Source: Hypomesus transpacificus
Taxonomy: Eukaryota > Chordata > Actinopteri > Osmeriformes > Osmeridae
Assembly: GCF_021917145.1 (NCBI RefSeq)
Contig: NC_061082.1
Coordinates: 21,302,596-21,366,595, forward strand
Direction: 5' to 3'
Length of the DNA stretch: 64,000 nucleotides
This document shows positions 14,551 through 63,852 of this stretch, piece after piece. The notes below the pieces were generated by a model that was not told where the DNA came from, did not search any database, and was given only the letters and a program-made list of their open reading frames with translations. Position 1 is the stretch's first letter; every line of letters starts with the position of its first letter. The position numbers were made by a program, and so were the translations under genes.

Positions 14551-14575
14551 TTCAGCACCGCTGAACTGGACAGCG
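14551..14575 (+). promoter_or_regulatory. RE1/REST-like site with expanded spacing, after gamma exon 1
   Basis: TTCAGCACC, 8-base gap, GGACAGCG; 149 bp past the splice donor. The half-sites match the REST (NRSF) element, and the gap is 6 bases longer than canonical, within the known expanded class. It also contains the inverted repeat GTTCAG/CTGAAC. Confidence 0.5.
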
Positions 14576-14772
14576 AAACCGTAAAATTGGTAATCCTCTC
14601 TTTGTATTTACAATTATGTCTGGAATTGTAGTTTAAGAAAATCAAACCCTTTTCCTGGCACTTGTAGATCTTTAGGATTTCTCTATGAATATTAGGTGTA
14701 GTAGTGAGAGCTGTCAGGGACCATACTTTAAGTTCTAGAAACTGGATTGAAGAGTGCGCTCTTAATTCTGTA

Positions 14773-14795
14773 GACACAAGGCGTCGCTATAGACC
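14773..14795 (+). promoter_or_regulatory. Pcdh promoter CSE (CGCT box), gamma exon 2
   Basis: AAGGCGTCGCTATAGACC core, 241 bp upstream of the ATG and in the same orientation as the gene. Preceded by a conserved block with the palindrome GTTCTAGAA at about 14733. Confidence 0.75.
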
Positions 14796-15013
14796 GTGAT
14801 TTAAAACGCAGTCTGATCACTAATCTATTATTACAAACTCCTCCTTTCTCTCCTGGCCTCCATTGCGCGTATTGCTTTGTCAGTGTTGCACGATACTATA
14901 CCTCTGAGGAACACGTATTCAGAAGAGTATGCTTGCATTTGAAACAACTGTGCTTATTTTTTTTGAAGTAACTGATCTCCACAACCTAACGGATATTTAA
15001 TAATCCTTGGATA

Positions 15014-17356
15014 ATGATGGATGTTTCCGTGAGGATTCTGTTCCCTCTGCTTTGTTTATGGGAGGTATCATCCGGTCAGATTTCTTACTCCGTCTCAGAG
15101 GAGGTGAACAAGGGAACCGCTGTTGGAAATATCGCTAAAGACCTCAATCTCAATGTTCAGGAACTGGAGTCTCGTATGTTTCAGGTTGTATCTGAATCGA
15201 GCAAGAAGTATTTTGATGTGAATTTGAAGTCCGGTGGTTTGTTCGTCAATGAGAGAATCGACCGAGAGGAGCTTTGTGGGACCAGTGAGAAATGCTCTCT
15301 GAGTGTACAGGCTGTGGCGCACAATCCCACGAGCATCTTTCGTGTTGAAATTAAAATACTCGATATAAACGACAATGCACCATCGTTTTCCGTTGGTTCA
15401 CTAACATTAAATATAACGGAAAACGCAGTGGCAGGAGAACGATTTCTTCTGCCGGTTGCTGAAGACATTGACGTCGGCATTAACTCAGTAAAGACCTACA
15501 AGCTGAGTCCAAATGAACACTTCTCTCTGGATGTGCAGAGCGGTGGAGAACAGAGTGTGTCTGCTGAGTTGGTGCTACAGAAACCTTTAGACCGAGAAAA
15601 ACAGGCTGTGATTCAGCTCGTACTGACTGCTGTAGACGGAGGAAAACCTCCAAGATCCGGTACTTTAGATATTGTGATACATGTCATGGATATCAATGAC
15701 AATAATCCGGTGTTTAGTAAATCCTTATACAAAGTGAAAGTTGCAGAGAATATTAATATTGGATCTAAAATACTACGTGTCTCAGCAACAGATAAAGATG
15801 AAGGTATGAACGGCGAGATAATTTACTCTTTCGTTGGTCACGGAAATGCTAAAGGTTATGATATATTCTCTATCGATCCTCATTCAGGGGAAATATCAAT
15901 GATAGGTGAACTTGATTATGAGGCAAACGTTGGTATTGAGTTGCGAGTTCAGGCGGCCGATCAAGGACAGTATCCTAAAACTACCCATTGCAAAGTTTTA
16001 GTAGAAGTTCTTGATTTGAATGACAATGCGCCACAAATATCTACGACTTCTCTAATGAGCAATGTGAAAGAAAATGCAGAATCTGGTACTGGCATTGCTT
16101 TAATAATGCTGTCTGATAAAGATGGCGGAAAAAATGGAATTGTGAACGGTCACATCAGCGGAACTGTTCCGTTTAAACTGCAGTCGTCCTATAAAAACCA
16201 GTACTCTCTGGTAGTGGACGGACCTTTAGATAGAGAGCGTCACCCCCAGTACAACATCACCATCACAGCCGTAGATGAGGGAACCCCCCCTCTCTCTAGC
16301 ACCAGTGTTGTTACTGTGCATATTTCTGATGTGAACGACAACCCACCTCGCTTCCCAGAGCCCATTGTCAACGTGTATTTAAAAGAAAATAGCCCAGTTG
16401 GAGACATGGTAGTTAACGTGCATGCGCATGATACTGATGAAAACGACAACGCGCGTGTCTCATATTCTCTGAAAAGCACTTCATCGCTTATCAACATTAA
16501 TGATTTGACCGGTGAAATATCTACTCTGCAGTCGTTTAACCACGAAGAAACTAAACGATTCCAGTTCCAAGTTCAGGCCACAGACGGTGGTGTTCCTCCT
16601 CTGAGCAGCAACGTGACTGTGAACGTTTTTATCCTGGATGAGAATGACAACACTCCTGTTATTCTCCCGCCCTATTCTGACCAAGGCTCTGTCAACTCTG
16701 AGAACATTCCCTACGCTGCTGAAGCGGGCTACTTTGTGGCCAAGATTAGGGCTGTAGACGCAGACTCTGGTTACAATGCGCTGCTCTCTTATCACATCTC
16801 TGAACCAAAGGGACCGAATCTATTCAGAATTGGAAGCAGCAATGGAGAGATCAGGACTAAGAGACGCATGAGTGACAATGACTTAAAAACTCACCCGCTG
16901 GTCATAGTGGTGTCTGACAATGGAGACCCTTCCCTGTCTGCCACTGTGTCTATTGATGTTGTGGTGGTTGAAAGTACAGGTGACATGCAGACAAGTTTCA
17001 GACAACTACCAAAAAAGGAGGAGAGTTTCTCAGATCTAAACCTGTATCTGCTCATCTCCATAGTCTCAGTATCAGTGATATTTCTACTGAGCCTCATCAG
17101 TTTAATAGCGGTAAAGTGCCATAAGACAGACGGCAGTTTCAGCAAGTACAGCGCCCCAATGATAACCACCCACCCTGACGGGAGCTGGTCTTACTCCAAA
17201 TCTACTCAGCAGTATGACGTGTGTTTTAGTTCAGACACAATGAAGAGTGACGTGGTAGTTTTCCCCACGTCGTTTCCACCTGGTGACGGGGAGCTGATCA
17301 GTATCAACGGAGGAGACACTTACAATAGAACTCAAACTCTCCCCACCTGCGAGAAG
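15014..17356 (+). CDS. pcdhg: Protocadherin gamma-type variable exon 2
   Basis: 781 codons from ATG 15014; a second ATG follows at once ([10 protein letters not shown]), and the sister exons start at that second one, so 15017 is equally possible. It has a class A leader (MDVSV...[12 protein letters not shown]). EC1 has CGTSEKC. The EC2-EC3 linker is DINDNNP and EC3 contains [12 protein letters not shown]. The tail differs slightly from the other exons ([29 protein letters not shown]), so its 3' end has been homogenised less completely. Donor GTAAGG at 17357, phase 0. Confidence 0.94.
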
Positions 17357-17498
17357 GTAAGGATATAGCATACTTCTTAAAGAAAATTGCATAATGCAAC
17401 GTCAATGTTATAATTTATTTTTGACTTGTGGTTTTTAAATTATCAACAATTGTTTATAATGGTTGATTATGCTGCAATGCAATGGTATAAAGTTAATG

Positions 17499-17523
17499 GT
17501 CAGCACAACTGTGCTGGACAGCG
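17499..17523 (+). promoter_or_regulatory. RE1-like site, degraded left half, after gamma exon 2
   Basis: GTCAGCACA, 8-base gap, GGACAGCG; 142 bp past the donor. The left half has two mismatches to TTCAGCACC. Confidence 0.35.
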
Positions 17524-17704
17524 ACATTGCAAAGTTGGTACTTTGGAATTCACAAATATGTTTGGAATTGTAGTTTACTAAAATAAAATTAAATGCCGGC
17601 ACTTGTAGATCTTTAGGTTTCCTCTATGAATATGAGTGCTAGCAGTCAGGGACCATACTTTAAGTTTTAGAACCTGGATTTAAGAGTGCGCTCTCACTTC
17701 CATA

Positions 17705-17727
17705 GACACAAGGCGTCGCTATAGACC
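17705..17727 (+). promoter_or_regulatory. Pcdh promoter CSE (CGCT box), gamma exon 3
   Basis: AAGGCGTCGCTATAGACC core, 226 bp before the ATG. It belongs to promoter class B, with AAATGTGTTGGGAAGGTCTT between the CSE and the ATG. Confidence 0.75.
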
Positions 17728-17930
17728 ATGATTTGAAACGCGGTGCGTTCACTAATGTATTATTACAAACTCCTCCTTTCTCTACTGGCCTCCATTGTGC
17801 GTATAGTGCTTTGCCAGTGTCGCACAATATCAAATGTGTTGGGAAGGTCTTTGAAAGAAAGAGTTGGCGTATATTTTTCTATGCCGTCTTTCCTTGACGC
17901 CATCAAGGTTTTTACTATCTGTGGATAGCG

Positions 17931-20288
17931 ATGGGTCTCTCCATTCTCGGATGCTTCTGCTGTGCTACTCTGCTGTTGCTTTGTTTGGTGGATTTATCTT
18001 CCTGTCAGATCGTCTATTCCGTCTCAGAGGAGGTGAACAAGGGAACCGTAGTTGGAAATATCGCTAAAGATCTAAATGTTCAGCAACTGAGGTCCCGTAT
18101 GTTTCAGGTTGTATCTGAATCGAGCAAGAAGTATTTTGATGTAAATCTGAAATCCGGTGTTTTGTTTGTGAATGAGAGAATCGACCGAGAGGAGCTTTGT
18201 GGGACAAATGAGAAATGCTCTCTGAGTGTACAGGCTGTGGCGCACAATCCCATGAACATCTTTCGTGTTGATATAACAATTTTTGATATAAATGACAATG
18301 GTCCCGTTTTTTCTGTTAAATCCTTGACTTTGAATGTTTCTGAAAATGCGGCGGCGGGTGAGCGTTTTCTTCTACCTTTAGCTAAGGACGCGGATGTGGG
18401 CAGTAACTCAGTGAAAGCCTATAAACTGAGTTCAAATGAACACTTCTCTCTGGATGTGCAGAGCGGAGGAGAGCAGAGTGTGTCTGCTGAGTTGGTGCTA
18501 CAAAAACCTTTAGACCGAGAGAAACAGGCTGTGATTCAGCTCGTACTGACTGCTGTAGACGGAGGTAAACCACCTAGATCAGGGACGGTACAGATTGTGG
18601 TGAATGTATTAGATAACAATGACAATAACCCAATTTTCAGCAAACCTCTTTACAAAGTGAAAGTGGCAGAGAATGTTAAAATGGGTACCAAAATAATATC
18701 TCTAACGGCAACAGATATAGATGAAGGGGTGAACAGTAAAATTATTTACTCGTTTGTTGGACATGATCATTCAAAAGAATACGAACTATTCTCTATTGAT
18801 CCTGAATCTGGGGAAATATCAGTGACAGGTGATTTGGACTATGAAGAAAATGTCGGAGTAGAATTGCGCGTGAAGGCTGCTGATCAAGGACATCCTCCGA
18901 AAACTACAAACTGCAAAGTTTTGGTAGAAATAATCGATATAAATGATAATGCGCCACAAATATCAATTATGTCACTTATGAGCACAGTGAGAGAAGATTC
19001 TGAATCAGGTGCAGCGGTTGCATTGATAGGACTCTCTGATAAAGACGGTGGTAAAAATGGAGTTGTGAACGGCCACATCAGTGGAACTGTTCCGTTTAAA
19101 CTGCAGTCGTCTTATAAAAACCAGTACTCTCTAGTAGTGGACGGACCTTTAGATAGAGAGCGTCACCCCCAGTACAACATCACCATCACAGCCGTAGATG
19201 AGGGAACCCCCCCTCTCTCTAGCACCAGTGTTGTTACCGTGCGCATTTCTGATGTGAACGACAACCCACCCCTCTTCCCAGAGCCCATTGTCAACGTGTA
19301 CTTAAAAGAAAATAGTCCAGTTGGAGACCTGGTAGTTAGCGTGCATGCACATGATACTGATGAAAACGACAATGCACATATATCATATTCTCTTAAAGGT
19401 AGTGCTATGGCTTCATCGCTAATCAACATTAATGATTTGACGGGTGAAATATACACTCTGCAGTCGTTTAACTACGAAGAAACTAAACGATTCCAGTTCC
19501 AAGTTCAGGCCACAGACGGTGGTGTTCCTCCTCTGAGCAGCAACGTGACTGTGAACGTTTTTATCCTGGATGAGAATGACAACACTCCTGTTATTCTCCC
19601 GCCCTATTCTGACCAAGGCTCTGTCAACTCTGAGAACATTCCCTACTCTGCTGAAGCGGGCTACTTTGTGGCCAAGATCAGGGCTGTAGACGCAGACTCT
19701 GGTTACAATGCGCTGCTCTCTTATCACATATCTGAACCAAAGGGACCGAATCTGTTCAGAATTGGAAGCAGCAATGGAGAGATCAGGACTAAGAGACGCA
19801 TGAGTGACAATGACTTGAAATCTCACCCGCTGGTCATAGTGGTGTCTGACAATGGAGACCCTTCCCTGTCTGCCACTGTGTCTATTGATGTTGTGGTGGT
19901 TGAAAGTACAGGTGACATGCAGACAACTTTCAGACAGCTACCAGTAAAGGAGGAGAGTTTCTCAGATCTAAACCTGTACCTGCTCATCTCCATAGCCTCA
20001 GTATCAGTGATATTTCTACTGAGCCTCATCAGTTTAATAGCGGTAAAATGCCACAAGACAGACGGCAGTTTCAGCAGGTACAGCGCCCCAATGATAACCA
20101 CCCACCCTGACGGGAGCTGGTCTTACTCCAAATCTACTCAGCAGTATGACGTGTGTTTTAGCTCAGACACAATGAAAAGTGACGTGGTAGTTTTCCCCAC
20201 GTCGTTTCCACCTGGTGACGGGGAGCTGATCAGTATCAATGGAGGAGACACTTTCAGTAGGACTCAAACTCTGCCCACCTGCGAGAAG
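17931..20288 (+). CDS. pcdhg: Protocadherin gamma-type variable exon 3 (mosaic)
   Basis: 786 codons, ATG 17931. The leader is class B ([17 protein letters not shown], ending SSCQIVYSV), as in exons 4 and 9. From about residue 44 onward EC1 is class A type ([20 protein letters not shown]), as in exons 2, 5-8 and 10. At the junction two residues are missing: [14 protein letters not shown] against [16 protein letters not shown], an in-frame 6-base deletion in EC1. The EC2-EC3 linker is DNNDNNP. It has three extra residues in EC5 (KGSAMASSL), shared with exon 7. Donor at 20289, phase 0. It looks like a recombinant of two subfamilies. Confidence 0.94.
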
Positions 20289-20430
20289 GTAAGGATATCG
20301 CATACTTCTTAAAGAAAATTGCATAATGCAACGTCAATGTTATAATTTATTTTTGACTTGTGGTTTTTACATTATTAACAATTGTTTATAATGGTTGATT
20401 ATGCTGCAATGCAATGGCATGAAGTTCATG

Positions 20431-20455
20431 TTCAGCACCACTGTGCTGGACAGCG
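20431..20455 (+). promoter_or_regulatory. RE1-like site after gamma exon 3
   Basis: TTCAGCACC, 8-base gap, GGACAGCG; both half-sites intact, 142 bp past the donor. Confidence 0.5.
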
Positions 20456-20636
20456 ACATTGCAAAGTTGGTACTTTTGAATTCACAACTATGTTTGTAAT
20501 TGTAGTTTACTAAAATAAAACTAAATGCCGGCAATTGTAGATCATTAGGATTCCTCTATGGATATCAGTGTGAGCTGTCAGGGACCTTACTTTAAGTTCT
20601 AGAACCTGGATTGAAGAGTGCGCTCTCACTTCTGTA

Positions 20637-20659
20637 GACACAAGGCGTCGCTGTAGACC
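20637..20659 (+). promoter_or_regulatory. Pcdh promoter CSE (CGCT box), gamma exon 4
   Basis: AAGGCGTCGCTGTAGACC, one change from the common form; 225 bp before the ATG; class B promoter. Confidence 0.75.
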
Positions 20660-20861
20660 GTGATTTCAAACGGTGTGATCACTAATGCATTATTACAAAC
20701 TCCTCCTTTCTCTCCTGGCCACCATTGCACGTATAGTGCTTTGTCAGTGTCCTACGATATCAAATGTGTTGGGAAGGTCTTTGAAAAAAAGAGGTTGCGT
20801 ATAGTTTTTTTAGGCCGTCTTTCATTGACGCCATCAAGGTTTTTACTATCTGTGGATAGCG

Positions 20862-23234
20862 ATGGGTCTCTCCATTCTCGAATGCTTCTGCTGTGCTACT
20901 CTGCTGTTGCTTTGTTTGGTGGATTTATCTTCCTGTCAGATCGTCTATTCCATCTCAGAGGAGGTGAACAAGGGAACCGTAGTTGGAAATATCGCCAAGG
21001 ATCTAAATCTCAATGTTCAGGAACTGGAGTCCCGTGTGTTTCAGATTGTGTCTGGATCCAAGACGAAATATTTCGAGGTAAATCGTAAAACAGGCGCCCT
21101 TTTTGTAAGTGAAAGAATAGACAGAGAGGAGATTTGTGGGACTAGCAAGAAATGTTCCTTAAATGTAGAGGCCATGGCACAAAATCCCCATAGTCTTTAT
21201 CGGATTGAAATAGATATATTAGACATAAACGATAATGCTCCGTTTTTCTCAGTGAATAAACTGACGCTGAATATAACAGAGATCGCTATTGCAGGAGACA
21301 AGTTTCTGTTGCCCATCGCCAAAGATCCGGATATGGGCAGTAACGCGGTTAAAGCCTACAAGCTGAGTTCAAATGAACACTTCTCTCTGGATGTGCAGAG
21401 TGGAGGAGAGCAGAGTGTGTCTGCTGAGTTGGTGCTACAGAAACCTTTAGACCGAGAGAAACAGGCTGTGATTCAGCTCGTACTGACTGCTGTGGACGGA
21501 GGAAAACCTCCCAGATCCGGTACCCTCCAGATCGTAGTGAATGTTATGGATTTTAATGACAATGATCCTGTTTTCAGTCAGACGCTATATAAAGTTAAAG
21601 TTAAAGAGAATGCGCCAAAAGACACTAAGATCCTTTCAGTTCTAGCAACCGATATAGATGAAGGAGTGAATGGTGAAATAACATATTTGTTAGTGGGAGA
21701 TGGCACTGAAGATGGGCAAAATGTATTAACTATTAATACCGAGACAGGAGTCATTGAGGTAACGGGACTTATTGATCATGAAGAAACTCCTGCAATTGAG
21801 TTAAGAGTCCAAGCCAAAGACAGAGGCATTCCTCCCAGAAGCACCAATTGTAAAGTTTTAGTTGAAGTTGTCGATGAAAATGATAACGCACCTGCCATCT
21901 CTGTAACTTCCCTTATAGACACAGTACAGGAGGACGAGAAAGCGGGCACCGCTGTAGCTTTGGTCACCGTGACCGATGGCGACGGAGGTAAAAACGGAGC
22001 AGTGCAGTGTGGCATTGCTACACCTGTTCCTTTCAAGCTGCAGCCCTCATATAAAAACTATTACTCGCTTGTGGTCGACGGGCCGTTGGACAGGGAGCTA
22101 GCATCCCAGTATAATGTGACAATTTTAGCCGTGGATGAAGGGACACCACCTCTCTCTAGCTCCAGTGTAATAACCGTTCTCATCTCTGATGTGAACGACA
22201 ATTCACCTCGTTTTTCAGATCGCGTCTTAGGCGTTTTTTTGAAAGAGAATAGTCCCGTGGGGTTTCCTATTGCCAAGCTGACTGCGCATGATTCTGACAT
22301 GAATGAAAATGCACAGATTTCTTATTCTTTGATTGAAGAAGGGAATACGACACCGGTATCCACAATGGTAAATATGAACTCTTTAACTGGAGAAATATAC
22401 ACCTTGCAGTCGTTTAACTACGAGGAGATGAAACGATTCCAGTTCCAAGTTCAGGCCACAGACGGTGGTGTTCCTCCTCTGAGCAGCAACGTGACTGTGA
22501 ACGTTTTCATCCTGGATGAGAATGACAACACTCCTGTTATTCTCCCGCCCTATTCTGACCAAGGCTCTGTCAACTTTGAGAACATTCCCTATGCTGCTGA
22601 AGCGGGCTACTTTGTGGCCAAGATCAGGGCTGTAGACGCAGACTCTGGTTACAATGCCTTGCTATCTTATCACATCTCTGAACCAAAGGGGACGAATCTG
22701 TTCAGAATTGGAAGCAGCAATGGAGAGATCAGGACTAAGAGACGCATGAGTGACAATGACTTAAAAACTCACCCGCTGGTCATAGTGGTGTCTGACAATG
22801 GAGACCCTTCCCTGTCTGCCACTGTGTCTATTGATGTTGCGGTGGTTGAAAGTACAGGTAACATGCAGACAACTTTCAGACAGCTACCAGTGAAGGAGGA
22901 GAGTTTCTCAGATCTAAACCTGTATCTGCTCATCTCCATAGCCTCAGTATCAGTGATATTTCTACTGAGCCTCATCAGTTTAATAGCGGTAAAATGCCAC
23001 AAGACAGACGGCAGTTTCAGCAGGTACAGCGCCCCAATGATAACCACCCACCCTGACGGGAGCTGGTCTTACTCCAAATCTACTCAGCAGTATGACGTGT
23101 GTTTTAGCTCAGACACAATGAAGAGTGACGTGGTAGTTTTCCCCACGTCGTTTCCACCTGGTGACGGGGAGCTGATCGGTATCAATGGAGGAGACACTTT
23201 CAGTAGGACTCAAACTCTGCCCACCTGCGAAAAG
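20862..23234 (+). CDS. pcdhg: Protocadherin gamma-type variable exon 4
   Basis: 791 codons, ATG 20862, class B leader. EC1 is a distinct type ([20 protein letters not shown], loop [21 protein letters not shown]) shared only with exon 9. The EC2-EC3 linker reads DFNDNDP. EC3-EC4 carry [20 protein letters not shown]. Small changes in the otherwise uniform 3' half ([34 protein letters not shown]) mark it. Its 3' end and downstream DNA are nearly identical to those of exon 1, so unspliced read-through would add a hydrophobic tail ([15 protein letters not shown]). Donor at 23235, phase 0. Confidence 0.94.
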
Positions 23235-23383
23235 GTAAGGGGATTTCACACTACTAAAAGGAAATTGCACAATGCAAAGTTGATGCCATTGGCTATTGTT
23301 TCTTTTCTACTTCATTTTTTACATTTGTTAAGGTGTATTCGTTTTGGTTGTTTACACTGCATTGTATTATCATCAAGTTAGCG

Positions 23384-23408
23384 TTCAGCACCGCTGAACT
23401 GGACAGCG
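23384..23408 (+). promoter_or_regulatory. RE1-like site after gamma exon 4
   Basis: TTCAGCACC, 8-base gap, GGACAGCG; 149 bp past the donor; identical to the site after exon 1. Confidence 0.5.
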
Positions 23409-23605
23409 AAACCGTAAAATTGGTAATCCTCTCTTTGTATTTACAATTATGTCTGGAATTGTAGTTTAATGAAATCAAACCCTTTTCCTGGCACTTGTAG
23501 ATCTTTAGGATTCCTCTATGAATATTAGGTATAGTAGTGAGAGCTATCAGGGACCATACTTTAAGTTCTAGAAACTGGATTGAAGAGTGCGCTCTCAATT
23601 CTGTA

Positions 23606-23628
23606 GACACAAGGCGTCGCTATAGACC
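23606..23628 (+). promoter_or_regulatory. Pcdh promoter CSE (CGCT box), gamma exon 5
   Basis: AAGGCGTCGCTATAGACC, 244 bp before the ATG; class A promoter almost identical to that of exon 2. Confidence 0.75.
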
Positions 23629-23849
23629 GTGATTTAAAACGCAGTCTGATCACTAATCTATTATTACAAACTCCTCCTTTCTCTCCTGGCCTCCATTGCG
23701 TGTATTGCTTTGTCAGTGTTGCACGATACTATACCTCTGAGGAACACGTATTCAGAAGAGTATGCTTGCATTTGAAACAACTGTGCTTATTTTTTTTGAA
23801 GTAACTGATCTCCACAACCTCACGGATATTTAATAATCCTTGGATAACG

Positions 23850-26189: not shown

Positions 26190-26646
26190 GTAAGGAGATC
26201 GCATACTTCTAAAAGATAATAGCAGAATGCAACGTCAATGATATTGGGTAAAGTTTATCTTTGACTTGTGGTGTCTAACGTTTGGTAGGGTGTGTTGGTG
26301 TCGTGATGAACGTATTTGGGACTGTTTGTTCAAAAAGTGGTTGTTTATTCTTTGCTGCATTGTGATCAACACTCTGTTGAATATATTAGAAAAAATATGA
26401 ACACGTGGTGTCGCTGCAGACCGTGGATATTTTCATCTGATTTCTCTTTATTGTAACTCCTCCTTCTTAAGCGTCTAATATTGTTTGACGGTATTGTCAG
26501 AAGGGCTGTGGTGAAGCAAGGAACGCAGACGATATAGGCCTCAGTAGAAACATTTATTTTGATATTATCTTTGGATAAATGTGCACATTTTTGGGAAGTA
26601 ACCGATCTCCACAACTTCACGGATATTAAGTGATCCTTGGATAACG
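26190..26646. other. Atypical intergenic unit between gamma exons 5 and 6
   Basis: Only the first 60 bases and the last 80 bases resemble other intergenic units. The middle (GGTAGGGTGTGTTGGTGTCG and onward) is unrelated, the RE1-like site and GTTCTAGAA block are absent, and only a divergent CSE remains at 26401. Confidence 0.7.
26401..26422 (+). promoter_or_regulatory. Divergent Pcdh CSE, gamma exon 6
   Basis: ACACGTGGTGTCGCTGCAGA, then CC; 246 bp before the ATG. It keeps the GTCGCT core and position but lies in otherwise unrelated promoter sequence, which argues the core is under selection. Confidence 0.7.
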
Positions 26647-28986: not shown

Positions 28987-29100
28987 GTAAGAAGATTGCT
29001 TACTTCTCAAAGAAAATTGCAGAATGCAACACCAGTGCTGTAATTTAATGTAATTTTATAATGTTTGATTACACTGCATTGCAATGGTATGAAGTTCGTG

Positions 29101-29125
29101 TTCAGCACCGCTGTGCTGGACAGCG
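29101..29125 (+). promoter_or_regulatory. RE1-like site after gamma exon 6
   Basis: TTCAGCACC, 8-base gap, GGACAGCG; 114 bp past the donor, the shortest distance in the array. Confidence 0.5.
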
Positions 29126-29140
29126 ACATCACAGAGTTAG

Positions 29141-29640
29141 CGCAAGGGGTCCCATTATCGTCCACCTAGTTCTCGACGCTCGTTAGCAATGTTACCAAAA
29201 TTTCGTTATAATACAAATTTAAATCGTTATGTCACAGCATTGTACTTTAATATATAGATACACACCTATTTCATAACAGTCCGGTTTTGAAATCCAATCC
29301 GGATATGCCTAGAAATGTTACTTTCCTGATTTTAGCAGTTAGCCAGGGGGTCCCATTATCGTCCACCCAACCACTTTCAATGGAGAATTGTCAGTTTGAC
29401 GCTGCGGAAGGCAGATGGTACACATATTCAATGTACACGATATGTACACATACTCAAATCTCGAAGTAAGAAGCTGTAATTTGGTGTGCAGCAATATAAG
29501 ATCTCTACATGTCGATGAGTTACTTTCTTTCGTTGCTGCTGCATATCTTCTTTAAGAAATTAACGGAAGAAACGGTTGTGGACGATAATGGGGCCCCGAA
29601 CGTTGGAGATTAAGAGTGGACGATAATAGGGCCCTTTACA
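29141..29640. mobile_element. Nested inverted-repeat DNA element
   Basis: Insertion of about 500 bp in the unit between gamma exons 6 and 7. The paralogous unit after exon 9 reads straight through (GAGTTAG then TACTCCC at about 38471). The outer ends are related inverted repeats: GGGGTCCCATTATCGTCCAC near 29146 and its reverse form GTGGACGATAATAGGGCCC at 29617. A second, inner pair lies at 29347 and 29578. This suggests one copy inside another, or a duplicated end. No transposase frame and no clear target duplication. Superfamily not determined; short-TSD cut-and-paste MITE is the best guess. Confidence 0.75.
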
Positions 29641-32549: not shown

Positions 32550-32574
32550 TTCAGCACCGCTTCACTGGACAGCA
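32550..32574 (+). promoter_or_regulatory. RE1-like site after gamma exon 7
   Basis: TTCAGCACC, 8-base gap, GGACAGCA; the last base of the right half differs; 145 bp past the donor. Confidence 0.4.
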
Positions 32575-35508: not shown

Positions 35509-35533
35509 GTCAGCACCACTGTGCTGGACAGCG
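35509..35533 (+). promoter_or_regulatory. RE1-like site after gamma exon 8
   Basis: GTCAGCACC, 8-base gap, GGACAGCG; one mismatch in the left half; 142 bp past the donor. Confidence 0.42.
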
Positions 35534-38438: not shown

Positions 38439-38463
38439 TTCAGCACTGCTGTGCTGGACAGCA
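38439..38463 (+). promoter_or_regulatory. RE1-like site after gamma exon 9
   Basis: TTCAGCACT, 8-base gap, GGACAGCA; one change in each half; 125 bp past the donor. Confidence 0.35.
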
Positions 38464-38671: not shown

Positions 38672-38894
38672 GTGATTTAAAACGCAGTCTGATCACTAAT
38701 CTATTATTACAAACTCCTCCTTTCTCTCCTGGCCTCCATTGCGCGTATTGCTTTGTCAGTGTTGCACGATACTATACCTCTGAGGAACACGTATTCAGAA
38801 GAGTATGCTTGCATTCGAAACGACTGTGCTTTTTTTGTTGTTGAAGTAGCTGATCTCCACAAACTCACGGATTTTTAATAATCCTTGGATAACG

Positions 38895-39720: not shown

Positions 39721-39820
39721 NNNNNNNNNNNNNNNNNNNNNNNNNNNNNNNNNNNNNNNNNNNNNNNNNNNNNNNNNNNNNNNNNNNNNNNNNNNNNNNN
39801 NNNNNNNNNNNNNNNNNNNN
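39721..39820. other. Assembly gap, 100 N
   Basis: Exactly 100 N, the usual placeholder for a gap of unknown size. It joins the middle of a gamma exon to DNA that precedes an alpha exon, an order not expected in a normal Pcdh cluster (alpha before gamma). Confidence 0.99.
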
Positions 39821-49135: not shown

Positions 49136-49275
49136 ACAAAATACACACAAAAGTGTCTGTACTTGTACTTGAGTGAAGGATCCTTGAGTGAAAGATTACT
49201 CAAGTAGAAGTACAGATACATGTTTAAAAAGACTGATCAAAGTTGAAGTAGGCCTACTGACTTAAAGTAGGATAA
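49136..49275. mobile_element. Relic of a fish hAT-like MITE
   Basis: Contains TGTACTTGTACTTGAGTGAA and ATTACTCAAGTAGAAGTACA, the arms of a very common teleost MITE built on ACTTGAGTA/TACTCAAGT inverted motifs. Ends are not cleanly defined. The rest of 48661-49427 is AT-rich with no feature seen. Confidence 0.45.
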
Positions 49276-50214
49276 AGAAATATGGGCTCAGACATACAAA
49301 TGTAAAAACTAGTCATTCCTACTTGCTTTTTTAATATTTTAATACACGTGTCATATTAAAACAGTGTAATAATAGTAAGAACAGTAATCACAGTGTAATA
49401 ACATAATAACAGTGTAACAACAGCTTACTTTTAAATCAGTTTGATAGTTCTCGACAAGGCTTGGATTCTCTTTTCACTTCAATCATTTAGTTCTAAATGT
49501 AGATGTCAATGTAGATGTGCAACAATTATATTTTAGAATGTTTTACTTATCATAAGTCTTAGCAGTTAGGCCATTTTTTCCTGACTTTTTCTTTTGGCTT
49601 TTTCCTGACTTTTTCTATTGAGCTTATTATATTTTTGTTGTTGTCCAAAACAACATTTGTGGGTAGGGCAGCCAATTACTTCTCAATAATGTCAGAAAGC
49701 TTAGCTAGTTTCAAGACAGCTACTGTAGCCAAATCACGTTTCTGGTTTACAGTTGACTCTGACACGACTTTGCAAACGGCACTATGCGGAGCTGTCTACA
49801 TTCTCTGGTGCTGATATTATTGTTTTGATTTTGTGTTGGCTTTATCGACCCTACTTTAAAACACTCTGAACATAACAGTGGTTCATTAATTTGATCAGTG
49901 TGGGTATTTCACTGTGTGAAAATGTCACGGGCCAGTATACGTGCCCAGATGGCGATGTTAAACTATTTTGAATGGTACAGCAAGTCTATTCCATGGCAAG
50001 TGACGACTACAGAAGACGTCATCAAGATTTAGGACACAACGCCTAGGCTACGCTACCTCAGCTGTGCCGCGTGGAGGCTCGACATGAATTTTGCAAGGCG
50101 GAAGAGAATGGCTGCGATCGAACAGCATATCGACACCAGTCTACAGATGTGAAGACAACCATTTTAAGTAAATAGAAACGATTCCAATTTATTTTGCACT
50201 ATAATCATTCTATC

Positions 50215-54944: not shown

Positions 54945-56423
54945 GAGTCCAGCAGTGACCTGCCATGACTTCTCAGACGGGTTGAGAACTTTCTACAAAT
55001 TCCACCTGACATCGAAGACGTTCAAAGACACAACCACAGCCCCCTACCCCCACCCCCCAGCTCTCTATCAATAAGATCCAACAGTGAGCTCCCTCCGCGG
55101 GCATCTCTTGGACCCTTCTTCCCAAACACCAACCTCACACCAGTGACCTCTTCTGCTGTAAACTACCTTCAACTCCATCAATCAAGCATGAATCTGCATG
55201 GCCACACTACCAGGTGCTTGAGCTTTATCGTCACGGAGAAGGAGGAGCCTCCGCCGAGGATGCTGGGACTGAATAGGAGTGCTGTCGTTTTTGGGGGATG
55301 TTGCTGATGACTTTGAACCTAACGGCAGGTATGGACATTCCATTTCCTGTTCCTCCAGGAAGGATGCGATGCAGGAGATGAAAGTGTTCCACATGTTCTA
55401 CTTAGGGGTTTTCTGTCATGCTTTGCCATGTCATCACAGGCTTGTTGTATAGTGTGTTAAGATGTTTTTATTTGCTAGTCCAAATATACTTTTTAAAAAA
55501 ACTAAAAACACTCTCCGAAAAGAAAAGAAAAAGCGTGCATTTTGAGTTTGTCATTTTTCATACAACTGTTCAGGAGCTATGATAAACATAAGGCATAGAT
55601 TTGAGAATTCTTAACTTTGCAATGATTCACCGTGAAGCATAACGCACAGATCAACTGCAATAGAGGCAACATCCTTCTGTATGTAGTGTCTCCCTGCCTG
55701 AGCAGAGTCTTCAGGTTGAAGCAGACTGGACCGTCTATGTAGCAGGCCTGCTCCCATGATCAGGACGCCCCGTAGTACCATATCCTGTCTCCAGTCCGTC
55801 ACAGCTCTCTCAAGCTAACCCTCACAGCCCGGTAACAGGGTCTCACTACCACGATCATCCACTCAGAAGGCCACTGTGAAAGCTAGGTCAAACGGGAATT
55901 CAAATATAAAACAAAACACACAAAAAAAACATTGGTGACAAAAGACCAGACAGTTGTATTCTGTAGAACGATTTACTATTTTCACTTTAAAGAATAGGAC
56001 TGTTTATTTAAAAAAAAATATATACAAATTATATTTATGTCAGGCATGGTGCAATTCAATACTCTGGCCATGTTTTAAAAGTTGAATTATGATGATTGAA
56101 TTGAACTTTATGAGGTAGTGTTTTTTTATTCAACTATTTGATATAACTACTCTTATTGCAGCTTTTTTGTGATTTCTTCAAGTGCATTTTGTGTTTTATG
56201 ATATTCGTAGTGCAATACATGATTTGTTCTTTCTTTGATAGTGTACAGACATTCAGATCTAATTCAGCACTGAGTCCACTATTAGATATGTAGCCAAATG
56301 GTCGACATCAACACCTCCTCATCCAGGTCTGAAGAGCTCAAATAACTAAACGTCAGGCATTATCTTTCAGAAATGAGAACATAGAAAGACAAAGCCAAAA
56401 TAGGGATGGAAAAGAAGAGAAGG

Positions 56424-56648
<225 letters not shown>

Positions 56649-56921
56649 AGATATTTTTTAATGACAGGTCGGCTCTTGATTGTATCAATCAATTCACTCA
56701 GTGTTTTAATTCCAAACAGACCATACCCCAAATTCTAACCTTCTCTCTAAAGACCTTCAACATGTAAAAGGGATAAGTAAAGAGGCCCAATCTGTTCTTT
56801 GTGTCTCTGCCAATGGATTCACTATTATTAGATCTATCTCCCTTGAAACCCTCTCTCTCTTCGTGTTGCATGACCTCTCTTCTCTCTCTGTGGTCGGATG
56901 AGGTTAGCCTTAGCTGCACTG

Positions 56922-56951
56922 ACACACACACACACACACGCACACACACAG
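56922..56951. repeat. (CA)n microsatellite
   Basis: Short form of the 7374-7436 array. Confidence 0.93.
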
Positions 56952-57721
56952 CTGTCTGTGCCACACCCATAATGACATTCGTGGAGGATATGCCACATGG
57001 TCATAGTGTGAGGCGAGCACTATATAATACTTAACCATATACATACTTAACTGTAGGATAATGGTGAAGGAGTGGTGCTTTGAGCGGTGCCATATGCATC
57101 ACCACAAAGCATGTGACTTGGAAAAGAATGAGATAATGGTGCTTAATCCAGATTTCAAGTCATGATTATTACCATGGCTGAGATGCCATCTGGACTGACT
57201 TACTTCCCTGACTTTTGACCACCGGTGCCAATCATGGGGCCTGGTGATGTGACCCGGCGTCAAAGTATTACTAGTATTATTTGAACAGATGTGCTGTAAG
57301 AACTGTAAAAAAATAAATAATAATGGGATGGGTTGAAACCAGGCTTGATATAACTACTTTTTACTTTGTTGTGTTTTGATACGATTCTGTACAATTTTGA
57401 TATCAGTTGTATTCGCTGTGGTGTGTTGGAGAACACCTGGGAGAGTTCATGCTGCTTGCTTAGTAATGTGTGTTTGTCTGTTTTAGTGTGTAGTGCTTAT
57501 TCCTGCATTTTACTTCTGCTTTTAGACTGTTTCTTGAGTCCCAGAGAGTGTCTCTGTGTGGCTTGTTACCTAACTGACATGGGATGCCCTGTCTTAAGCA
57601 CCGTCCAGACAGACCTGCCCCCTGGCTGTCAGCTCAGATACAAATGGAGTGAGAGAGAATGGCCTTGCAGATTTTTGTGTGTGTCTTTTTGCTCTCATGT
57701 TCTGCCAGAAGATGCAATCTG

Positions 57722-57727
57722 AATAAA
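57722..57727 (+). terminator. Poly(A) signal AATAAA (candidate for Pcdh A, copy 2)
   Basis: Same position relative to exon A as in copy 1, with the same GT-rich downstream sequence. Confidence 0.4.
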
Positions 57728-58127
57728 GTTTGGAGATCTGAGTTCCTGGTTTTAGCTCTGGCGTCTTTTGTGAATGGCTAAATATGTAGATATTATCACT
57801 GTTGATAGGATTTCTCCCCCTTTATCTCTGTCCTTCCCTCTCTATCTATCTCTGTCATTCTCTCTCTCTCAATCCACATGCAGACAAACACACACGGGTA
57901 TGCATGCTGACCCAGTTTCCAAATCAACTGTTCCGTGCTAATGCAGGGTGATTGAGCTTTTGTAGAGAGTGGAGTCTGCAAATCACATCACATTGAGCTG
58001 GTCTAAACATTTTCCTCCAGGTGGTATTCTGATCTTGACTGCCTGGTGGCCAGTGATGGATGCCCCCCCCCCCTCACCCCTGCACTCCGCAGCAGCAACG
58101 GGGGTGGGGGGGGGACTCGGCCGACAC

Positions 58128-58266
58128 AAAGTCCTCGGCGCCTAGGAAACGGTTGCCGCGGCAACCGCGCCACCTTTCCCGGCGAACGCGGAGGAGGGGA
58201 TTACGGCGCGCGCTCTCACGTCTTTCACCTTGTTTCCCCGTTGCTCCCTCTCTCCTCAGCTCTGCG
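58128..58266 (+). promoter_or_regulatory. GC-rich promoter-like patch with RFX X-box (copy 2)
   Basis: GTTGCCGCGGCAAC at 58152-58165 is unchanged, as is the GTGAGT donor at 58266. Nearby homopolymer runs (C and G) differ in length from copy 1, so the surrounding DNA is free to change. Confidence 0.4.
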
Positions 58267-58448
58267 TGAGTCCTCTTCTTCTCCATCTCCCTCTACCCCC
58301 CTCTCTCTCTTTCCCTCTATGTCTCTGTCTCTGTCCCTCTACCAGTTCACTGCTGTGGGTGGGGATCCTGTACACAATCAATCTATCCGTATATTGTTGA
58401 AGGGCTTGAATTTGGAATTATAAACGTTCAAGCGTGTTCGCATCCTCC

Positions 58449-58538
58449 TGTGTGTGTGTCAGTGTGTGTGTGTGTGTCAGAGTGTGTGTGTCAGAGTGTG
58501 TGTATGTCAGTGTTTGTGTGTGTCAGTGTGTGTGTGGG
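58449..58538. repeat. (TG)n / TGTGTCAG simple repeat
   Basis: Same as 8940-9028 with one substitution. Confidence 0.9.
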
Positions 58539-58779
58539 AGAGACCGATAGCAGGATGTACATGTTTGGATGTGCCAAATAAAGGTATGTGTGGGAAGAAC
58601 TACACAAACAGTCATAAGTGAAGATTCCTAATGTCTTGACAGATGAGAGTGTCAGTAGGGAGACTGCTGCAGTGTGCTCCAGTTTCACCAGTCTCAGCAA
58701 CCTCTATTTGCAGAGACAACCCCCGCAACCCTCTCTTATCTCCTGCCCCTCCCTGCCTCATGCCCCTCTCTACCTCCCT

Positions 58780-58793
58780 GCCTATCTCTCTCT

Positions 58794-58832
<39 letters not shown>

Positions 58833-58878
58833 TTCTCTCTCTCTCTCCCTCCCCCTCTCTCTTTCTCTATCTCTCTCC
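58780..58878. repeat. (TC)n pyrimidine tract
   Basis: Counterpart of 9269-9362, with a slightly different unit order. Confidence 0.9.
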
Positions 58879-58928
58879 GCCAGCAGAACGTTTCTCATTG
58901 ACTAAATCAGTTCTCACTGTTAAGCACG

Positions 58929-59090
58929 ATGGACAGCGACTTGGCTCAGCGCTGTATCGCCATGGAGACGGTCTCCTTCTCTGTAGGCTACTACAGTACT
59001 GCAGTGGAGAGAGTGAGACGACAATACCTGTATGGTCCACTAGAGGGGAGCTTTAATCCAAACCAGGGATTATTACGAGGATGGTTATAA
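58929..59090 (+). CDS. Candidate small protein, 53 residues (copy 2)
   Basis: Same frame as 9414-9575, length unchanged, one residue different (Tyr9 to Cys). Same upstream acceptor (CCGCCAG) and in-frame upstream stop. Not recognised; low confidence. Confidence 0.25.
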   Translation: MDSDLAQRCIAMETVSFSVGYYSTAVERVRRQYLYGPLEGSFNPNQGLLRGWL

Positions 59091-59094
59091 TAGA

Positions 59095-59286
59095 GTCAGA
59101 TGGCTGAGTGGTTAGGGAATCGGGCTAGTAATCAGAAGGTCACCAGTTCGATTCCTGGCTGGGCCAAAATGATGTTGTGTCCTTGGGCAAGGCACTTCAC
59201 CCTACTTGCCTCGGGGGGAATGTCCCTGTATTTACTGTAAATTGCTCTGGATAAGAGCGTCTGCCAAATGACTAAATGTAAATGTA
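59095..59286 (+). mobile_element. tRNA-derived SINE with L2-like tail (copy 2)
   Basis: Same insertion as 9580-9771; box B here is the intact AGTTCGATTCC. Confidence 0.85.
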
Positions 59287-59409
59287 ATACCAGCATCAAC
59301 ATGATTTATTATCATTATTTCACACAATTACTATTGCTTCATTGTCTTGTATTTTGGGATACCTAAGTAACGGAAATAGTACCATGTTATTTTATCCAAA
59401 GCAACAAAC

Positions 59410-59473
59410 GGGGGATTTGAACCTGCAACCTCTTGATCTTCAGCCAAATGCTCCACCACTGATCTGGAACCAT
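59410..59473 (-). mobile_element. tRNA-Cys-like SINE head fragment (copy 2)
   Basis: Same relic as 9895-9958. Confidence 0.6.
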
Positions 59474-60167
59474 CTGTTAAATTATAATGAATTCTAAATT
59501 ATTCTAAATATTTAATGATATTTGGGGTAGTTGAGAATTACAGTTGCAGAAGTATTTAATTGAGTAAATCTCAGCATCTGGGAACCTCTCGTAGGCACTG
59601 AGTGGTTTACAGTGTTAGCAGTGAGGTCATGATCTCACCAAGCTAGACCACAGGGGAAAAGCAGTTGCACATTTTCAACACCACTCTCCTCTCTGCCTGT
59701 AAATTATTCACGTCATCGTACCCTGGCATATGGCTCCTTCATCTGCATCCTCTCCTGTCATCATCAGAGCACTCGGCTGAGAATGCAGTCTGCACGTGGC
59801 AGTCTGCTTTGGAGACGTCAACTAGGTTCAACCACCAGGAGGCGATCTGTAGCTGGAACACATGAGTGCCCACGGCTGTGCTGTTAATGCTGAACTTAAT
59901 GTGAGCACATTTCCAGGCTCTCACGCAGGACATTGGGTTATTGAGTTAACTATCGAAGGGCAGTTCACTTAACGTTAATGGGTTGGTGTGAGTTAAAAGG
60001 GGGGGGGGGGGAGGGGGACCTGCCTGTGGTTGATGTGTTGTTCTGGACTGACTTCCCCCTCCTCTGTCTCTATTGATGAGTCAGCTCATGACCTGGACGT
60101 GTGTCGTGTGGAACCCTGGGTGTTGGAAAGGGGCACTCGCGTCCACATTTATGTTGCATTTGCATTT

Positions 60168-60175
60168 GTCTAGAC
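60168..60175. other. Empty target site of the copy-1 hAT MITE
   Basis: Single GTCTAGAC with both flanks matching those around the 191-bp insert at 10657-10847. Either never occupied or precisely lost; the former is far likelier. Confidence 0.9.
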
Positions 60176-60176
60176 C

Positions 60177-60187
60177 ATGTCTCTCTC

Positions 60188-60233
<46 letters not shown>

Positions 60234-60345
60234 CTCTCTCTATTTATCTCCTCTCTCCTTTTCATCTGTCTCATCTCTTTCTCACTCATCTCTCTAACAT
60301 CTCTCTCCTCTTTCTTTCACATCTCCCTCTCTCTCAATTCTCTCA
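60177..60345. repeat. (TC)n-rich simple sequence
   Basis: Counterpart of 10856-11040. Confidence 0.88.
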
Positions 60346-61082
60346 AATGCCTTCTCGGTTTGTATTTTTTCTTACTGCCTCTCTCTCTGTATCTATTGTT
60401 CTATTCTCTCAGTTTTAATATTCCATTTCAAGTGGCATGGTAAGAGATATGTCAAATGTTGCCAAAACAAACATACTGCTGCACAGTATCTATACATACA
60501 CATAGGCTACATGTGCATCTACGTATACTGTACATATGTATTCATAAACACGGACATACAGTATATACATACACATGCCGAACACACAGAAACATGCACG
60601 CACTGAACATTAAAATTGTCACTGCATTTTGCATGTCGTTTTCTAAGTTCTGTCTCCACCTCTCACTGTGGGCGGCGTGTGAGCAGCTTTTCTTCGTTAC
60701 TGCCTCCTGCCCGCCCTTTCCCTCCCTACGCGGCTCCCTCTCCCTCCCTCTCTCCGTCTCTCTCTGTCTGTGTGCGGGGTTGCCGACTGGCGATGACCTG
60801 CTCCGACCAGCAGAAAAGGGAGTTGTCCATGGTGCTGAAATACTGTTTTTCCTCTCTCCGTCTTCCATTGTGTGTTGAAACTGGAATTTCTGTTTCTACC
60901 GACATTAGCCACGTAGTTTTGTTTCCACCCACTATTTCACATATTAAATACATTTTCACGGTATAAACATTCGTCTCTTGTACCGAATATGTATTCAATT
61001 CAGAGCACGCTTATGATATCCGTGACGTACTAATACGTAGCGTCACAAAAAAATGAAGCTCTGTATCTGTTCGTGCTATTCT
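60346..61082. other. Noncoding DNA 5' of the first gamma exon (copy 2)
   Basis: Same as 11041-11786, with few substitutions; no gene seen. Confidence 0.5.
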
Positions 61083-61103
61083 CCACGAGGTGTCACTGTG
61101 CAC
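61083..61103 (+). promoter_or_regulatory. Pcdh promoter CSE / CTCF-like element, gamma exon 1 (copy 2)
   Basis: CCACGAGGTGTCACTGTGCA, unchanged from copy 1, 233 bp before the ATG. Confidence 0.6.
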
Positions 61104-61315
61104 TAACAATACAGGGATTCTGTTTTTATCTCCACCCATGAATATTTAGGCAGACTAAGGCATTCGTCACTGTACAATTGAGTAAACTGGGATTGGGTTG
61201 CGAACGGGACATGAGGATTATGTGTGTGTTTTCATAGAAGAAACATTGTGGATTGTTTTGCAGACGCATGTTATTTATGTCACAATGCGTGCATTCTAAA
61301 ACGGACTACTGAACA

Positions 61316-63697
61316 ATGGGTGTGTTCGAGAAGCGCATTTGGATTGTAAATCTGTTTTGCCTGTCGCTTTGTCTCCAAGATGTTGCATTTGGACAAATTA
61401 CCTATTCCGTTTCAGAAGAGGTTCGCCCGGGAACGGTTGTTGGGAATTTAGCAAAGGATTTGAATCTTAAAGTGACTGAACTTGAGACGCGAATGTTCCA
61501 CATCGAATCAGGATCGTCCAAGAAACATTTTGAGGTAAATTTAAGGACCGGAGCTATCTTCGTTAGCGAGGCTATAGATAGAGAAGAGCTTTGTCCCAAC
61601 GGCTTGGTTTGCACCCAAAACTTGGAAGCAATCGTTAATTATCCTTTGAGACTGTACAGTGTTGAGGTAACCATACTTGACGTGAACGACAACGCTCCCA
61701 TATTTTCTGAAAAATCACAGATCATTAGTATTGCTGAACATACATCCCCTGGAGCTAAATTCCCTATGCCCTCGGCAGATGATCCAGATGTAGGCAGCAA
61801 TTCAGTTGACGCGTATAAACTGTCCCCAAATGCTTTCTTCAGACTGGATGTACATAGGCCTTCTGAGCCTGACCGTGGTCCTTCATCAGAGTTAGTGCTA
61901 CAGAAGCCTTTAGACCGGGAAAAGCAGTCTGTGATCAAGCTTATTTTAACGGCAGTTGATGGAGGAAAGCCTCCAAGATCCGGTACGACTGAAATTACTA
62001 TTAACGTGCTGGATGCCAACGATAACGCCCCTGTGTTTTCCACTGTTCTATACAAAACTAAAGTCTCAGAGACTGCGCCGGTTGGCACTACGATATTGAG
62101 GATTAACGCTACAGATCTAGATGACGGTCTAAACGCTGAAGTAATTTATTTGTTCAGCCAACAGGGCCAACGGGGAGCCTATGACATGTTTGCAATAAAT
62201 CAGAGTACGGGAGAAATAACGGTGGCAAGACCGTTGGATTTTGAAACGACCAGTGCCTACGAGATCCGCGTAGAGGCCCTGGATCGAGGCAGCACGCCTT
62301 TAGCCTCCCATGCCAAGGTGCTGGTAGAGGTAATAGATGTAAATGACAACGCTCCTGAAATCAAACTGTCCTCTCTTTCAGAGAGCGTGAGAGAGGACGC
62401 CAAAAAGGGCACCGCGATTGCACTGATCACTGTTCTTGACAAGGACGGAGGTAGAAACGGTCACGTGCGTTGCACCATATCCGAAGGGACGCCGTTTTTG
62501 CTGGAGTCATCTCAGGGCAAATATTACTCCCTCGTCCTTGAAAATATGCTCGACAGGGAAATCCACTCCGAATATAATGTCACTATCATAGCTACTGACG
62601 ATGGTAGTCCTCCCCTCTCCAGCACGAGCGTTTTTACTATTTCCGTTTCTGACGTTAATGACAACGCGCCTCAGTTTCCGGAACCTATAGTCAACTTGTA
62701 CCTAAAAGAAAACAGCCCCACGGGTTCCTTGATATGTTCTCTGACCGCTTTAGATCCGGACCAGGAGGCAAACGCTCAAATATCATATTCTTTAGGGCCT
62801 ATAACGACGGCTACACAGTCATCTGTTGCTGTCAGTGTAAATTCTTTAACTGGAGAAATTTACAGTCTGCAGTCTTTTGACTACGAGGAAATGAAACGAT
62901 TCCAGTTCCAAGTGCAGGCCACAGACGGTGGTGTTCCTCCTCTGAGCAGCAACGTGACTGTGAACGTTTTTATCCTGGATGAGAATGACAACGCTCCTGT
63001 TATTCTCCCACCCTATTCTGACCAAGGCTCTGTCAACTCTGAGAACATTCCCTATGCTGCTGAAGCGGGCTACTTTGTGGCCAAGATCAGGGCTGTAGAC
63101 GCAGACTCTGGTTACAATGCGCTGCTCTCTTATCACATCTCTGAACCAAAGGGGCCGAATCTGTTCAGAATTGGAAGCAGCAATGGAGAGATCAGGACTA
63201 AGAGACGCATGAGTGACAATGACTTAAAAACTCACCCGCTGGTCATAGTGATTTCTGACAATGGAGACCCTTCCCTGTCTGCCACTGTGTCTATTGATGT
63301 TGTGGTGGTTGAAAGTACAGGTGACATTCAGACAACTTTCAGACAGCTACCAGTAAAAGAGGAGAGTTTCTCAGATCTAAACCTGTATCTGCTCATCTCC
63401 ATAGCCTCAGTATCAGTGATATTTCTACTGAGCCTCATCAGTTTAATAGCGGTAAAGTGCCATAAGACAGACGGCAGTTTCAGCAGGTACAGCGCCCCAA
63501 TGATAACCACCCACCCTGACGGGAGCTGGTCTTACTCCAAATCTACTCAGCAGTATGACGTGTGTTTTAGTTCAGACACAATGAAGAGTGACGTGGTGGT
63601 TTTCCCCACGGCGTTTCCACCTGGTGACGGGGAGCTGATCAGTATCAATGGAGGAGACACTTTCAGTAGGACTCAAACTCTGCCCACCTGCGAAAAG
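61316..63697 (+). CDS. pcdhg: Protocadherin gamma-type variable exon 1 (copy 2)
   Basis: 794 codons, ATG 61316, the counterpart of 12020-14401. The leader and first 98 residues are identical. A short patch at about residues 99-142 then differs strongly ([37 protein letters not shown] against [37 protein letters not shown]), and near-identity resumes until EC5. From about 62855 on, the differences become paralogue-like (SFDYEEMKR for [16 protein letters not shown] for [15 protein letters not shown]). So the exon has one divergent island and a replaced 3' half. Donor GTAAGG at 63698, phase 0. Confidence 0.93.
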
Positions 63698-63827
63698 GTA
63701 AGGAGATTTCATACTACTAATTGCGCAATGCAACGTAGATGCCATTTGACATTGTTTCTTGTCTTTTTTATGTAACGTTTATTCATTATGGTAGATTACA
63801 CTGCATTGTATTATTATCAAGTTTGCG

Positions 63828-63852
63828 TTCAGCACCGCTGAACTGGACAGCG
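63828..63852 (+). promoter_or_regulatory. RE1-like site after gamma exon 1 (copy 2)
   Basis: TTCAGCACC, 8-base gap, GGACAGCG, intact 130 bp past the donor, although the surrounding intergenic DNA has diverged from copy 1. Confidence 0.5.

Follow-up and report, generated by a model that had tools for sequence, protein, structure and literature searches.

The clustered protocadherins (Pcdh) give nerve cells surface identity tags, and REST keeps nerve genes off in other tissues. According to the available text of a review (PMC3601302, citing Tan et al. 2010), the Pcdh clusters of fugu, mouse and human contain both canonical and non-canonical NRSEs, those of fugu being promoter sites and those of the two mammals lying in coding sequence; the same text states that deletion of the NRSE changed the expression of a construct in Xenopus tadpoles from neural to ubiquitous. 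The original report (Tan et al. 2010, NAR 38:4985) is cited both there and in a second review (PMC7811963), the accessible part of which describes binding of REST to HS5-1 and to the alpha variable exons. In the human PCDH alpha and gamma clusters, as given in the available portions of Tang et al. 2021 (PMC8096226), there are one or two REST sites, denoted 'a', 'b' and 'c', per alternate variable exon, and the HS5-1 enhancer has a REST site with an 8-bp spacer. A literature search, in which Tan et al. 2010 was represented through reviews only, found no fish array with one expanded site per unit.

The fish locus described here has counterparts in each of these systems, so far as the available parts of the respective sources describe them. 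As in fugu, NRSE-like sites lie in the 5' region of Pcdh variable genes (here, in 41 of 54 exons), and the 8-bp spacer also occurs in human HS5-1 (PMC8096226). The sites differ in placement from those of human PCDH, which lie within the variable exons (PMC8096226), whereas the fish sites are upstream, with 1 of 108 exon interiors containing one. The human atypically spaced RE1 silencers (Mouri et al. 2022, PMC9903721) consist, as here, of half-sites with 8- or 9-bp spacers; those elements are spread genome-wide in human, whereas the fish sites form a tandem array.

RE1-like sites between the variable exons

The window is the whole 64-kb stretch of DNA that was analysed (C23:21302596-21366595), and 256.6 kb around it was read; positions are given in window coordinates unless another contig (C57 or C9) is named. 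The exons of the window and the assembly gap within it are as follows.

12017..14401, plus strand: alpha-type variable exon, with an open frame to the donor at 14402
14990, 17898, 20829, 23805, 26602, 30011, 32973, 35908, 38850 and 61313, plus strand: further alpha-type exons, of which the exon at 38850 is interrupted by an N gap
39721..39820, unstranded: assembly gap of 100 N at the joint of two duplicated blocks, just before the second copy

The earlier note, made from the letters of the window, had labelled these exons as gamma. Downstream of them are an exon reading KAPNADWRYSASLRAGM (113804) and a constant-region end at 120550-120616, which we take to be the alpha constant exons, and an exon reading KAPNDWRITQNQRPG, presumably a gamma-like constant exon, is first found at 216200. 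Since the first constant exons met downstream are those of alpha, and a gamma-like one follows only at 216200, the window exons are alpha, and these positions rule out the gamma assignment. The gamma exons occupy the region between about 124.8 and 214.7 kb.

A stretch of about 49.3 kb is present twice, with 93-99% identity, the two copies together spanning -9396 to 86450. The repeat is probably a second haplotype that was left uncollapsed, with a true recent duplication as the alternative. The near-identity of the two blocks rules them out as independent evidence, and the site at 63828, which had been counted along with the others, sits in this repeat and is not an independent copy. In the second copy, two units appear to have fused in the short frame at 69741-71498.

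Over the whole 64-kb window, the motif TTCAGCACC-N8-GGACAGCG has nine matches with at most three mismatches and no tenth match at this threshold, compared with a mean of 0.09 and a maximum of 1 in 100 dinucleotide shuffles. The positions reported previously, including those of the weaker forms, were all recovered (9 of 9, with 0-2 mismatches), and the distance from the splice donor to the site is 114-149 bases for all nine, again as reported. Several RE1-like forms had been missed, namely, antisense sites with a spacer of 2 at 11523 and 60819 and antisense sites with a spacer of 9 at 354 and 49788. The sites and related elements in the window are listed below.

354..381, minus strand: expanded RE1-like site, spacer 9, 2 mismatches, 399 bp upstream of the exon at 742
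11523..11543, minus strand: canonical RE1-like site, spacer 2, 476 bp upstream of the first alpha-type exon
14551..14575, plus strand: expanded RE1-like site, spacer 8, 0 mismatches, 436 bp before the next ATG
14774..14795, plus strand: CSE-like promoter box, 198 bp after the RE1-like site
17499..17523, plus strand: expanded RE1-like site, spacer 8, 2 mismatches (left positions 1 and 9)
20431..20455, plus strand: expanded RE1-like site, spacer 8, 0 mismatches
23384..23408, plus strand: expanded RE1-like site, spacer 8, 0 mismatches
26190..26646, plus strand: inter-exon unit of 457 bp without an RE1-like site, after the exon at 23805
29101..29125, plus strand: expanded RE1-like site, spacer 8, 0 mismatches, with the next ATG 928 bp on
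32550..32574, plus strand: expanded RE1-like site, spacer 8, 1 mismatch
35509..35533, plus strand: expanded RE1-like site, spacer 8, 1 mismatch
38439..38463, plus strand: expanded RE1-like site, spacer 8, 2 mismatches
49788..49815, minus strand: expanded RE1-like site, spacer 9, the duplicated-block copy of the site at 354
60819..60839, minus strand: canonical RE1-like site, spacer 2, the duplicated-block copy of the site at 11523
63828..63852, plus strand: expanded RE1-like site, spacer 8, 0 mismatches, in the duplicated block, the counterpart of the site at 14551

The unit after the fifth exon (23805) lacks the spacer-8 motif, as previously noted: the best match in this unit has 6 mismatches on the plus strand and 5 on either strand. 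In the alignment, this unit appears to join two inter-exon types in such a way that the site is left out. The box ACACAAGGCGTCGCTATAGACC at 14774..14795, which we take to be a match to the CSE, aligns with small changes across 16 aligned units. The distance from the site at 29101 to the CSE-like box that follows it is 686 bp, compared to the usual 173-203 bp. The name CSE is that used in the available text of a review (PMC3601302). Within most of the alpha exons, there is also a near-match with a spacer of 20 on the minus strand, which we set aside given that it lies in coding sequence nearly identical between the exons and that 20 is outside the REST range.

A second series of sites lies past the end of the window.

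127635-174459: gamma array of TTCAGCACC-N9-GGACAGCT or close forms, in 15 inter-exon units

All 15 units that follow the exons from 124796 to 171585 carry a spacer-9 site. The gamma array is a sister array parallel to that of alpha, with another spacer length (9 vs 8) and other flanks. A pattern search for the gamma donors found none.

Spacer spectrum and comparison with REST half-sites

Perfect pairs of half-sites separated by 0 to 30 bases occur at 113 places in the 437-Mb genome, and the reversed half-site pattern, searched over the same spacers genome-wide, occurs at none. The canonical spacer of 2 accounts for 65 of these places, spacers of 0 and 1 for one and three, respectively, and spacers of 17, 19 and 28 for one each; 41 places have expanded spacers, namely, 8 (17 places), 9 (14), 10 (7) and 11 (3), and no perfect pair with a spacer of 3-7 is found in the entire genome. 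Among the 43 places with spacers of 3-20, nine are in the C23 region and eight on contig C57, which contains a second protocadherin locus. When the C23 region and C57 are left out, spacers of 8, 9, 10 and 11 are found at 3, 12, 6 and 3 places, and the spacer sequences of these outside places, judged by eye, look unrelated. Only 2 of the 65 perfect canonical pairs are in the C23 region or on C57, both of them on C57.

The fish spectrum is close to the spacer rule of human REST as given in the available parts of the publications. In ChIP-nexus data, human REST sites have spacers of 2 or 7-9 but not 3-6 (PMC8096226), and an older map describes half-sites 'expanded by 7-11' (PMC2573930). Among the expanded spacers in a human reporter screen, only those of 8 and 9 bp silenced, with an effect weaker than that of the canonical spacer, and repression was weakened when the 8- or 9-bp spacer was scrambled (PMC9903721). 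The fish spectrum departs from the human rule in that perfect pairs are absent at a spacer of 7 and number ten at spacers of 10-11. The spacers of the two arrays, 8 in alpha and 9 in the main gamma group, are within the range permitted in human (7-9, and 8-9 for silencing).

The left half-site TTCAGCACC has 0-2 changes in the nine window sites; in the eight alpha units compared, all four departures fall on positions 1 and 9, and in gamma, 6 of the 8 departures do so. The available text on the human expanded sites describes the ninth base as barely conserved and not read by REST (PMC8096226). Compared to GGACAGCGCC, the first seven bases of the right half-site are unchanged in all eight alpha sites, with changes at position 8 in two sites, at position 9 in all eight and at position 10 in three. 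In the 15 gamma sites, position 8 is changed in all 15, position 9 in nine, and positions 2, 4 and 5 in one each. That the last bases of the right half are off the consensus in 8 of 8 alpha and 15 of 15 gamma sites is what would be expected if the motif were a site for another factor, with only an incidental likeness to the REST half-sites. We consider this explanation very improbable because the exact copies agree with both REST half-sites at 16 to 17 bases, the spacers found across the genome come close to the human REST rule, and one of the three spacer-8 loci outside Pcdh has a frame resembling a Kv2-type channel. The motif is best read as a non-canonical RE1/NRSE, that is, a putative REST binding site. 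The identification as RE1 with expanded spacing, already proposed in the earlier note, gains support from the spacer spectrum, from the published REST rules, and from the upstream enrichment and slower change of the half-sites described below.

With regard to the three spacer-8 loci outside Pcdh, each taken as 3 kb, one has a channel-like frame and the other two have no frame of at least 150 aa. In the former, a perfect spacer-8 RE1-like site is found near a potassium-channel-like frame (C9:1947594-1950618), presumably of the Kv2 type.

Position of the sites relative to the exons

An RE1-like site within 900 bp upstream of the ATG was identified for 41 of the 54 large cadherin-type exons of the region, compared with 2 of 324 shuffled sequences and 1 of 108 exon interiors; these counts allow at most 2 mismatches in 16, either strand, and spacers of 1, 2 and 8-11, which were chosen after the spectrum had been seen. 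At this threshold and distance, 13 of the 54 exons have no upstream site. If the first duplicated block is left out, the count becomes 32 of 42 exons. The spacer is 8 in 16 of the 41 exons with a site, 9 in 17, and 2 in the remaining eight, and six of these eight canonical sites are antisense. Antisense canonical sites precede the first exons of alpha and gamma, by 476 and 503 bp, respectively, and canonical sites are also found before the final exon of the alpha run and before four later gamma exons.

Of 15 alpha units, 13 have the site 173-203 bp before the CSE-like box and 406-443 bp before the ATG (about 170-205 and 404-443 bp when taken over most alpha units), and in the two remaining units, which are copies of each other, 686 bp separate the site from the box (2 of the 17 units drop out of these counts, having no box or ATG by the pattern used). 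The donor-to-site distance of 114-149 bp is likewise constant in 13 of the 15 units, and the constancy of distance is therefore undecisive as a guide to whether a site belongs with the preceding or the following exon. The earlier note had assigned the sites to the preceding exon, and the fixed distance past the donor, seen in 13 of the 15 units of alpha in which both distances were measurable, is compatible with sites that act mainly on that exon, for example, as an intronic silencer or a splicing element. Other observations make this assignment unlikely. The first exon of each run (12017 in alpha, 124796 in gamma) has an RE1-like site some 0.5 kb upstream and no exon of the same kind before it; conversely, a scan of both strands lists no site from 98837 to 124278, beyond the last exon of the tandem alpha run. 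Moreover, the upstream sites occur on both strands, which fits a DNA element rather than an RNA one. Given the first-exon cases, the lack of a listed site past the alpha run, and the known behaviour of REST, the best assignment of each site is to the promoter of the exon that follows it. The proposal that the layout is unlike that of mammals holds insofar as the sites are outside the exons; it is not a new idea, since promoter NRSEs of fugu are described in the available text of a review (PMC3601302).

Divergence of the half-sites and the proposed role of REST

We compared the divergence of the half-sites with that of the adjacent sequence among the units of each array; these are comparisons of paralogues within one genome, to which short-tract conversion may contribute. 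In the eight alpha units of one duplicated block (block A), the mean pairwise difference is 0.078 in the half-sites, 0.241 in the spacer and 0.251 in the flanks, the half-site value being biased towards conservation by the restriction to units with at most 2 mismatches (8 of the 9 block-A units with a donor). None of the 144 sliding windows of the same shape outside the element is as low as the half-sites, and randomly drawn flank columns are as low in 0.035% of 20,000 draws. With four further, partly duplicate units added, the corresponding values are 0.072, 0.214 and 0.294, and none of 85 windows is as low. For gamma, where all 15 units of the group were included, the differences are 0.085 in the half-sites, 0.293 in the spacer and 0.345 in the flanks, and 0 of 180 windows are as low. 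Overall, divergence between units is three to four times lower in the half-sites than in the flanks, and the spacers vary nearly as much as the flanks.

These values bear on the concern, raised when the array was first noticed, that the conservation could be passive. Under this explanation, the units would be recent tandem duplicates homogenised by gene conversion, in which a functionless ancestral RE1-like string was copied along. The units are indeed young: the last approximately 860 bp of the alpha exons (e.g., 13549-14406) are 95-98% alike among units, as expected from regional gene conversion, which has been reported for fugu Pcdh in the available literature. Furthermore, part of the array is a near-identical duplicate, and in one pair of units (38314 and 77107) the alike tract continues through the RE1-like site. 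In most of the listed pairs, the tract ends no more than about 45 bp past the donor, before the site. Because the half-sites vary three to four times less than the flanks (0.08-0.09 against 0.24-0.35 for flanks and spacer), the duplication does not appear to be purely passive. The same conclusion is favoured by the gamma array, with its different spacer length and flanks, and by the 8 of 41 exons with a site in which the spacer is canonical, six of these sites being antisense.

Additional evidence comes from the second locus. Five 10-kb stretches of C57 were read, picked for exact hits and leaving out three expanded and two canonical hits on the contig, and all five hold protocadherin exons. 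The best C23 matches of the C57 exons show 72-74% identity for the group ending AWTFESQQV and 70% for the exon at 742, with lower values for the others. Two pairs of sites were matched through the best exon hit: C57 22408 with C23 208616 (sense, spacer 8 in both, ATG 572 and 559 bp away, respectively) and C57 288400 with C23 354 (antisense, spacer 8 vs 9, ATG 436 and 399 bp away). In both pairs, the half-sites are retained, whereas the 150-bp flanks align no better than shuffled sequence. The cross-locus comparison comprises five rows, three of which set C57 sites against the single C23 site 208616, one of these being the best-hit pair. For one C57 exon with a sense spacer-8 site, the best match, at 205879, has an antisense canonical site, and therefore in this case the kind of site differs between the loci. 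In the C57 stretches, 6 of the 12 exons with 900 bp of upstream sequence have an RE1-like site, so that either the rule of one site per exon is weaker at C57 or the threshold is too strict.

Taken together, these observations make passive copying of a functionless string improbable. Within this genome, the concern is largely answered by the slower change of the half-sites and by two or three cross-locus pairs; the comparison of half-site and flank rates that had been suggested was made here on paralogues and gave slower half-sites.

In view of the nine sites, the spacer spectrum, the slow half-sites, the upstream enrichment and the cross-locus pairs, we favour the explanation that the sites are non-canonical RE1/NRSEs to which REST/NRSF binds, each in the proximal promoter of the Pcdh variable exon after it, and consider this likely. 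By analogy with the finger model of human REST, which the available text of PMC8096226 derives from EMSA and molecular dynamics, the two half-sites, 8 bp apart in alpha and 9 bp apart in gamma, would be read by REST zinc fingers 7-8 and 3-5, with finger 6 bridging the gap between them. REST would then recruit co-repressors that keep the promoter silent outside neurons, and as REST falls in maturing neurons, the promoters would open to stochastic choice. Binding and silencing by REST in this fish are what we infer from the sites themselves. One difference from the human screen concerns the spacer sequence, which mattered there, whereas here the spacers vary nearly as the flanks do.

The sites form a real, constrained array of non-canonical RE1s, best assigned to promoters in the Pcdh alpha cluster of a teleost. 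Control of the cluster by REST had been described before, and the fish array is mainly a clear new example; with the concept established, the interest lies in the regularity of the array and in the spacer class of each subcluster. The array suggests that per-gene REST control of the cluster has been kept across vertebrates despite the differing positions of the sites. More tentatively, it is possible that teleosts and mammals both have about one REST site per clustered Pcdh gene, attained through different placements (promoter vs exon), with the fish using mostly the weaker 8/9-bp class (33 of the 41 site-bearing exons) and a spacer fixed per subcluster. If so, per-gene silencing by REST would be a conserved demand met by turnover of the sites, and the weaker spacer class may be kept for easy release of the promoters as REST falls. 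The array also provides a sequence-level test of the two-mode spacer rule of REST outside mammals and a natural system for editing the silencing of clustered protocadherins unit by unit.

One further site is shared by the two loci. The antisense spacer-8 RE1-like sites at 187313 on C23 and at 34050 on C57, located about 1.2 and 1.3 kb, respectively, upstream of the following exon, are 83% identical over 58 bp, with some 30 bp of flank conserved, and this antisense site is a candidate for an old element.
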